A DNA stretch of 64,000 bases. Source: an uncultured Lachnospiraceae bacterium. GTDB lineage: Bacteria; Bacillota; Clostridia; Lachnospirales; Lachnospiraceae. The notes below the pieces were generated by a model. The model was not told where the DNA came from. It worked only from the letters and a program-made list of their open reading frames with translations, and did not search any database. The DNA is taken from contig CAMNXA010000004.1 of assembly GCA_946566685.1 (NCBI GenBank), positions 62,001 through 126,000 of the forward strand, given 5' to 3'. The stretch's first letter is position 1, and each line of letters starts with the position of its first letter. Shown here in pieces: positions 9,252 through 59,871 of this stretch. A program made the position numbers and the translations under genes.

Positions 9252-9280
9252 TTGTCTTTTTAGTTAGATTATGCTATAGT
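9252..9280 (+). promoter_or_regulatory. Putative sigma-A promoter (TTGTCT-17-TATAGT, extended -10 TGC) for the Rpn gene
   Basis: TTGTCT at 9252-9257, 17-bp spacer, TATAGT at 9275-9280 preceded by TGC. Confidence 0.55.
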
Positions 9281-9286
9281 AAACCT

Positions 9287-9490
9287 ACATTTCATATCGT
9301 ATCACTTTTCACATGGATACGATATCTGGCTTCCGGCTCATCCGGAAGATGAACGGAGCAGTTCGCTCCAGCATTACCAACTTTTAACCGACAGAAAAGG
9401 CAGGACAGTGTTAAGGGCGGGCTCTTTGATCTTCTCTCCTTTTCTGTATCAAACAAGGTGTGTCTGGCACACCGTTCAGAAAAGGAGGCA
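9287..9490 (+). ncRNA. Structured 5' leader of Rpn gene with mutually exclusive RBS-sequestering helices
   Basis: Perfect inverted repeats 9294-9303/9316-9325, 9330-9336/9342-9348, 9457-9462/9468-9473; 9436-9446 complements the RBS region 9477-9487, while 9391-9400 complements 9438-9447. Confidence 0.55.
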
Positions 9491-9492
9491 CT

Positions 9493-10680
9493 ATGGCCAA
9501 GGAAAAGCAAGTCACTTCCAAAAGGAAGAATATCATCAACAATCCGCATTTGCATGACAGTGGCGGTAAACTGATCTTCGGGGATAATATCCTCTGTTCT
9601 CAGTTCCTCAGGGATTATGCAGATGTGGATATCCTCCGGAATATCAGCCCGGAGGATATCGAGGATGTATCGGAACGTTATGTCCTGCTCTTCAGTTCCC
9701 AAAGAGACAGCGATTCCGTTAAGAAAGTAAATATCTCCAAATATCTTTCAAAAAAAGAAGACGAAAATCCACTTGGATTACCACTTTATATTGTTTCTCT
9801 TGTTGAACATAAGACCAAAGTGGAGTACAATGTATGTATGCAGATATTCCGATATATGTTCTGTATCTGGGAGGACTATGAAAAAGAGATGGAAAGAGCT
9901 CATCCCGGAATCAGTGCCAGGAGGGATTTCAGGTATCCGCCAATCCTGCCGATTGTGTACTATGAGGGGACGGACCGCTGGACGGCGCCGAAGGACCTGT
10001 CGGATCGGATACTCTGCAAGGAACTGTTGGGCGATTATCTTCCGCACCTTACCTATCAGGTGGTAAGACTGCACGATTACAGTAATGAAGAGCTATTGTC
10101 GAAGGGAGATGAGATCTCTCTTGCCATGCTGGTCAATAAGATTAGAAGTCCGGAGGATGTAGAGGACTTTGCCCAGCTTCCCAGGGAGAAGGTGGACAAG
10201 ATCCTACAGGATACGCCGGGATATTTATTGGAGATTATGGCCAAGCTGACACGTGCGTTGTTTTATAATATGGACATACCGGAGGATAAGACAGAGGAAG
10301 CGGTAGCAAAGATAAAGGAGCGCAAGATGGGAAGATTATTTGAGGGGATAACATTTGACTATCAGGCAGAGATGAGGAAGATGAGGGAAGCAAGAGAGGC
10401 CGCGGAGAAGGAGATAGAGGCGGCGGAGAAGGAAATAGAAGCCGCACGGCAGGAAGCCCAGCGGGAAGCCCAGCGGGAAGCCCAGAAAGAAGTAGAGGCG
10501 GTGCAGCGGGAAGCCCAGAAGGAAATAGAAGCTGCCAGGCAAGAACTCAAAATTTCGAGGTATATTGCAAAGATGTTGAGTGGAGACCATTCGGTAAGTG
10601 AAATTAAGGCTTCATTAAAGCAAGAGTTTGGTTTGTCAGAAGAACAGGCAGATGAGGCGTATCAAAAGGCGATCGAATAG
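9493..10680 (+). CDS. Rpn family recombination-promoting nuclease / putative transposase (PD-(D/E)XK)
   Basis: LGLPLYIVSLVEHKTKVEYNVCMQIFRYM (ExK core), PPILPIVYYEG; C-terminal coiled coil; ATG 9493 after AAAGGAGG. Confidence 0.85.
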   Translation: MAKEKQVTSKRKNIINNPHLHDSGGKLIFGDNILCSQFLRDYADVDILRNISPEDIEDVSERYVLLFSSQRDSDSVKKVNISKYLSKKEDENPLGLPLYIVSLVEHKTKVEYNVCMQIFRYMFCIWEDYEKEMERAHPGISARRDFRYPPILPIVYYEGTDRWTAPKDLSDRILCKELLGDYLPHLTYQVVRLHDYSNEELLSKGDEISLAMLVNKIRSPEDVEDFAQLPREKVDKILQDTPGYLLEIMAKLTRALFYNMDIPEDKTEEAVAKIKERKMGRLFEGITFDYQAEMRKMREAREAAEKEIEAAEKEIEAARQEAQREAQREAQKEVEAVQREAQKEIEAARQELKISRYIAKMLSGDHSVSEIKASLKQEFGLSEEQADEAYQKAIE

Positions 10681-10719
10681 CCGGTATTAAGAGAAATTTT
10701 TTAGAAATATAAATAAATT

Positions 10720-10760
10720 CCCAATGTAAGATATGTAATTGTCTTATGTTGGGAGTTTTT
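10720..10760 (+). terminator. Intrinsic terminator after the Rpn gene
   Basis: CCCAATGTAAGA / TCTTATGTTGGG stem (two G-T pairs) followed by AGTTTTT. Confidence 0.7.
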
Positions 10761-59427: not shown

Positions 59428-59871
59428 ATGGCAGAAACCAAGAAAACAGTAAGCGTTAAACCGGCGGCAAAAGCAGCAGCCGCTAAAGCCACAGATACAA
59501 AGACAGCACAGGCAGAGACAACAACGACAGCATCTGTAGCAGCGACAGAACCCGTTGCAGAGACTAAAAAGGCAGCAGCGAAGAAGACAACCACGAGAAA
59601 GACGACAGCAAAAAAGACAACAGCGAAGAAGGATACCGCGAAGAAGACAACTGCGGCAAAGAAAACGGCTGTAAAAGAGACCGTACATGTGCAGTTTGCA
59701 GATAAGTCCTACACAGCGGAGGATCTTGTAAAGATTGCCAAGGATGTGTGGAAATATGATCTTCATCAGAAAGTTGCAGACTTCAAGAGTGTTGAGTTAT
59801 ATGTAAAACCCGAGGAGAGCGTTGTTTACTATGTGATCAATGGTGAGGTTCAGGGCAATTTCGGAATCTAA
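59428..59871 (+). CDS. DUF6465-like protein with histone H1-like Lys/Ala/Thr-rich N-terminus
   Basis: AAAKKTTTRKTTAKKTTAKKDTAKKTTAAKK tail; C-terminal VHVQFADKSYTAEDLVKIAKDVWKYD...VYYVINGEVQGNFGI. Confidence 0.75.
   Translation: MAETKKTVSVKPAAKAAAAKATDTKTAQAETTTTASVAATEPVAETKKAAAKKTTTRKTTAKKTTAKKDTAKKTTAAKKTAVKETVHVQFADKSYTAEDLVKIAKDVWKYDLHQKVADFKSVELYVKPEESVVYYVINGEVQGNFGI

Follow-up and report, generated by a model that had tools for sequence, protein, structure and literature searches.

The leader of an rpn toxin-antitoxin gene from an uncultured, gut-type Lachnospiraceae bacterium is, with a probability of roughly 0.6, a cis-acting translational switch, which acts on the full-length toxin RpnL apart from the antitoxin RpnS. 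The gene is located in a stretch of 64,000 nucleotides (contig CAMNXA010000004.1, positions 62,001 to 126,000), which was analysed as a whole and is named the window below; all coordinates refer to it. The leader is conserved, its three 5' hairpins (H1, H2, H3) covary, two rival helices can be formed further downstream, one of them unevenly among the homologues, and the internal start within the gene is conserved as well. The riboswitch-like interpretation given in the original prediction is partly supported by these results. Table 1 lists the features.

Table 1. Features of the rpn leader and gene in the window.
Feature	Position	Strand	Remark
Promoter, sigma-70-type TTGTCT-17-TATAGT, extended -10 TG	9252-9280	+	conserved in homologous leaders
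Promoter element TTGTCT, followed by a 17-nt spacer	9252-9257		
Promoter element TATAGT	9275-9280		
Hairpin H1, 9 bp, ATATCGTAT/ATACGATAT	9294-9325	+	covariation
Hairpin H2, 7 bp, CTTCCGG/CCGGAAG	9330-9348	+	covariation
Hairpin H3, 5 bp, GGAGC/GCTCC	9355-9369	+	covariation; missing from the original prediction
Conserved linker TTACCAACTTTTAAC, probably single-stranded	9374-9388	+	near-invariant alignment columns
Strand U (anti-anti-SD), an upstream copy mimicking the RBS; forms the 5' side of helix P4	9391-9400	+	
Strand A, switch strand; partner is U (via 9438-9447) or the RBS (via 9436-9446)	9436-9447	+	
Hairpin P5 (GGTGTG/CACACC), between strand A and the RBS	9457-9473	+	
Strand R, RBS region CAGAAAAGGAG; buried when the switch is OFF	9477-9487	+	
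rpn gene, PF04754 (Transposase_31), 395 aa, full-length product RpnL	9493-10680	+	E = 3.9e-16
Internal Shine-Dalgarno AAGGAG, serving the putative antitoxin within the gene	10315-10320	+	conserved
Putative RpnS antitoxin (117 aa), internal in-frame ORF with ATG start	10327-10680	+	analogy with PMC10327210
Terminator-like hairpin, end of the rpn unit	10715-10758	+	

All segments named in the original prediction, i.e. the promoter, the four complementary stretches, the hairpin P5 and the 5' hairpins, were located at the positions given there. Due to the extended -10 element of the promoter, transcription is expected to start near 9287, which results in a leader of about 206 nt, and the terminator-like hairpin 3' of the gene makes the rpn unit look monocistronic. 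As predicted, reverse complementarity is exact between 9436-9446 and 9477-9487 (11 nt) and between 9438-9447 and 9391-9400. A perfect 11-nt complement of the RBS occurred once in 2000 dinucleotide shuffles of the upstream leader; none of 3000 shuffles contained a segment (9 nt or longer) with complementarity both to the RBS and to a second upstream copy. The leader folds with -77 kcal/mol, compared to -56.4 ± 4.4 kcal/mol for shuffled sequences (z = -4.65).

The protein encoded downstream matches the PF04754 domain with 59.7 bits (cut-off 21). A 2023 study described Rpn proteins as toxin-antitoxin systems directed against phages, whose antitoxin is translated inside the same gene: the full-length nuclease RpnL is blocked by the C-terminal RpnS, which is synthesized from a start site within the gene (PMC10327210). 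Internal starts giving RpnS have been described for rpn genes of E. coli and C. difficile, and one plasmid-encoded Rpn member restricts phages (PMC10327210). Four-residue repeats set the specificity of RpnS. The window gene resembles these systems (COG5464/PF04754) with respect to the PF04754 domain, the internal SD-ATG for a C-terminal RpnS and the C-terminal repeats; by analogy, the toxin and its antidote are probably both encoded by this gene. The Lys-Glu pair at the internal SD is written AAG GAG at all 14 of 14 distinct homologous sites, many of these rows being close relatives. In view of the 2023 description and of the matching internal start, the framing of the gene as a mobile nuclease in the original prediction is probably outdated. 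A check with PADLOC gave no specific match. The C-terminal coil contains short tandem repeats (units of 21 bp and 12 bp, 10395-10485), which resemble the repeats described for RpnS. Elsewhere in the window, a 30-bp tandem repeat with 2.9 copies of the unit CAGCGAAGAAGACAACAGCGAGAAAGACGA is found at 59576-59662.

A DNA search of the window's own genome yielded three further copies of the leader, one of them weak, and a search of the genus yielded more; the homology of the paralogous copies starts at the window promoter, from the -35 element onward. A covariance model of the 5' part of the leader (R1) detected 11 places in six of 77 genus genomes, among them a leader outside model building (G045), and all 11 are located directly 5' of an rpn gene or an rpn remnant. 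Close leaders are present in Lachnospiraceae bacterium UBA7086 and in Bacterium 0.1xD8-71. When R1 was applied to 397 genomes of the family, clear matches were restricted to the window's own genome; one weak extra match (L076, 29 bits), preceding a comM-like ATPase gene, was judged to be due to chance. The leader was not found in phage and plasmid collections, and the exact pattern of the conserved linker had no match in viral contigs. Rfam 15 contained no match to the leader at the gathering threshold, nor at E-values up to 1. Kinship with HEARO, cited as a loose precedent in the original prediction, or with another Rfam RNA consequently found no backing; the likeness to HEARO consists in a structured RNA beside a nuclease ORF. 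Among the open-licence papers searched, no description of an rpn leader or riboswitch was found.

In the alignment of homologous leaders, 98.1% of the cells of H1-H3 are paired, and six pairs are changed on both sides, compared to 2.4 ± 1.0 in shuffles. For H1, the paired fraction is 98.9%, and one pair shows a two-sided change (UA to CG); the corresponding values are 97.1% and two pairs for H2, and 98% and three pairs for H3. Shifting the partner by 1-3 columns destroyed the pairing signal. Conservation and covariation in homologous Rpn leaders had been named beforehand as a check, and both are present in H1-H3. The two 5' hairpins predicted originally were borne out, although their list was incomplete, as H3 had been overlooked. 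Because H3 covaries, the minimum-energy fold of the window leader, which does not contain H3, is not the conserved one and is misleading when considered alone. Judged from these aligned sequences, the 5' part of the leader is a conserved structured RNA. A pairing of CTTTTAAC (9381-9388) with GTTAAGGG (9410-9417) had additionally been proposed as a pseudoknot. The letters are present; the pairing was rejected, because the closest paralogue carries GTGAAGGG in its aligned sequence, which disrupts it without compensation.

For the switch helices, the comparison comprises 10-11 sequences, which represent about four clades of one genus; consequently, covariation on these helices is thin. The ten intact leaders are those of type a (window, C3, G010 and G006), C75 alone, type b (C15, G010b, G006b and G045) and G046 alone. 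The mutually exclusive helices expected from an RBS mimic and an anti-SD strand can both be folded in all ten of them. P4, formed by U and A, exceeds shuffles in at least one member of each of the four clades (p about 0.003-0.03); taken singly, P4 of G006 and of G010b is not significant against shuffles, and in G046 the helix is rebuilt from different letters. For the RBS helix, pairing is better than in shuffles with p 0.001-0.04 in type a and p 0.002 in C75, whereas in type b and G046 this helix is no better than shuffles (p 0.2-0.35), which is the main weakness of the switch reading. Of the RBS-on/RBS-off switch as originally conceived, P4 holds, being kept or replaced in four clades, whereas sequestration of the RBS is strong in two clades and weak in the other two. 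In C75, the RBS region GGAAAGGAGCC pairs with GGCTTCTTTCC, located just 5' of the usual strand; this combination of a changed RBS and a different partner strand signals that the RBS cover is kept through different pairs. P5 does not exist in type b leaders, and a longer hairpin takes its place in G046.

The unpaired fraction of the RBS has a median of 0.18 in the leaders and of 0.57 in 32 control genes of the window (p = 1e-4, with rows that are not independent); the RBS is more strongly occluded than in other window genes. The free-energy differences between the forced states range from -4.8 to +8.4 kcal/mol in the ten leaders. When growing transcripts were folded, P4 reached a probability of at least 0.86 in all ten leaders prior to transcription of the RBS; for full-length transcripts, the computed probability is at most 0.14 in nine of the ten, and for G006 the calculation favours the ON state even at full length. 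According to these models, the early formation of P4 and its subsequent loss would look like the pattern of a translational OFF/ON platform. The platforms of translational riboswitches and attenuators likewise possess two exclusive helices, one of which buries the RBS, and an early helix in the nascent RNA; the rpn leader differs in that it has no known aptamer, no Rfam match, and is located before rpn only. An RNA thermometer was rejected, since the window leader is not predicted to respond to warming: the unpaired fraction of its RBS is 0.01 at 20-50 °C. Among the leaders folded, warming clearly increased RBS exposure in G046 only.

From this arrangement we infer switching in cells, its direction, its trigger and the sparing of RpnS as follows. 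The nascent RNA would fold H1, H2 and H3 as well as the P4 hairpin. Once the RBS has been transcribed, strand A could leave U and pair with the RBS, which would shut off translation of RpnL. A signal (protein, RNA, ribosome state or small molecule), acting via H1-H3 and the linker, would hold P4 in place and keep the RBS open. RpnS, translated from its own internal RBS about 830 nt downstream, would escape this control, and the leader would set the RpnL:RpnS ratio on a single mRNA. Note that RpnS of E. coli rpn genes is also made from an internal promoter (PMC10327210); with such a promoter, control by the leader could be less decisive.

Several other explanations have to be weighed against this switch. 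Static occlusion of the RBS combined with a stable 5' end might keep the toxin constantly low without any switching, strand U being a by-product of a local duplication of the RBS region. Low translation benefits a toxin gene, the RBS is occluded at equilibrium in most leaders, and no trigger is known; however, static occlusion needs neither a P4 that occurs in all four clades, in one of them rebuilt, nor the covariation of H1-H3, and we regard such constitutive down-tuning as unlikely. Autogenous control, in which binding of RpnL, RpnS or the complex of both to H1-H3 and the linker shifts the balance between P4 and the RBS helix, is compatible with the switch; it is the version that names the trigger, and the confidences in the two overlap. 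Ribosomal-protein leaders are subject to autogenous control of this sort. We know of no RNA binding by Rpn proteins, which counts against it. The leader occurs only before rpn and rpn subfamilies have leader types of their own, as co-evolution predicts, but the narrow range also follows from simple linked descent. In favour of an RNA-binding role, RpnS is predicted to be HTH-like (PMC10327210); in total, we consider autogenous control possible, if rather doubtful.

If the leader were a riboswitch whose ligand is bound by an aptamer consisting of H1-H3 and the linker, this would account for the covarying multi-hairpin domain, the near-invariant linker and the kinetic type of the expression platform. 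Metabolite riboswitches usually have a wider range, and most are not confined to one gene family. The rpn leader, in contrast, precedes one gene family only, is limited to the genus apart from one chance-level match among the 397 family genomes, and has no counterpart in Rfam, which makes this reading improbable. The leader shares with erm attenuation an upstream RBS-like copy and a segment that can pair with either copy, and U might be the RBS of a leader peptide, whose translation opens the downstream RBS. A start codon does follow U at a distance of 5-12 nt in seven of ten leaders, but the ORFs differ in frame and in length (1, 1, 2 or 6 and more than 28 codons), three leaders have none, and no conserved upstream ORF was found among the ten. 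Lacking the conserved leader peptide of the erm systems, the rpn leader is very unlikely to operate by ribosome-dependent attenuation. The hairpins might also act at the level of DNA, as the left end of a mobile unit that is recognised as single-stranded DNA in the manner of IS200/IS605. Rpn proteins are annotated as transposases, and the extension of paralogous homology up to the -35 element would suit such an end; covariation fits an RNA between promoter and RBS instead, and we give this explanation hardly any credence.

Relatives of rpn occur in 42 of the 77 genus genomes. Among the rpn genes with upstream DNA read (L082-L126), the majority are preceded by a long structured leader containing short hairpins, with a promoter-like sequence located about 140-240 nt 5' of the start, and the other rpn leaders of the genus belong to several sequence types. 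For one of these, an RNA model (R2) was built; its covariation is strong, and nine pairs are changed on both sides, compared to 3.4 ± 1.3 in shuffles. R2 gave 17 strong matches in the genus, 16 of which precede rpn genes that the protein search had already detected, and most of these 16 had served for model building; the out-of-sample match, in G056, precedes a short ORF resembling a solitary RpnS (MGELFENF...). In other genera, E-values were mostly 0.002-0.01, and 12 of 397 genomes had matches, compared to about 4 expected by chance at E 0.01. The best of these matches (L134), the single one inspected, was discarded, as it is located within a coding ORF and has no rpn gene in its vicinity. 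Occlusion of the RBS in the other rpn leaders is moderate (median 0.36), and an Rfam search of 20 other rpn loci returned nothing except a partial tRNA outside the leader. One leader type contains a GCRUGGGA segment that can pair with a UCCCAUGC strand beside the RBS (L089, L103-L105, L109, L115-L120, L131); by eye, GCRUGGGA could alternatively pair with an upstream UAUCCCA motif, which would constitute a second switch-like design.

Several loci contain truncated arrangements. Two leaders, one of the window type (G010) and one of the R2 type (G056), precede rpnS-like remnants without a toxin part, the two loci with an rpn leader directly before a solitary rpnS-like ORF being L035/L047 and L160; in G010, the window-type leader is fused to the internal start at a shared AGAAAAGGAG (junction seen in L035). 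In L037/L044, the leader is joined to the rpn coding sequence at a shared GACAGTG, so that the usual start codon is absent together with strand A and the RBS.

The levels of RpnL and RpnS vary without explanation, and the release of the Rpn toxin from its antitoxin is, according to those who described the system, a key unresolved issue (PMC10327210). The terms 'leader' and '5 UTR' are absent from the main text of that study, whereas the toxin start in the window is placed behind a structured RNA. This leader may be the missing control over the timing of toxin production. If true, control of the first start only, on an mRNA with two products, would be a direct answer to the question of toxin release and would connect anti-phage toxin-antitoxin genes with structured RNA leaders. 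More tentatively, and with the odds somewhat against it, the rpn genes of this group might generally be under fast-evolving structured leaders, each subfamily having its own type, which gate the toxin and not the antitoxin; a gene-within-gene defence system would then possess an RNA trigger.
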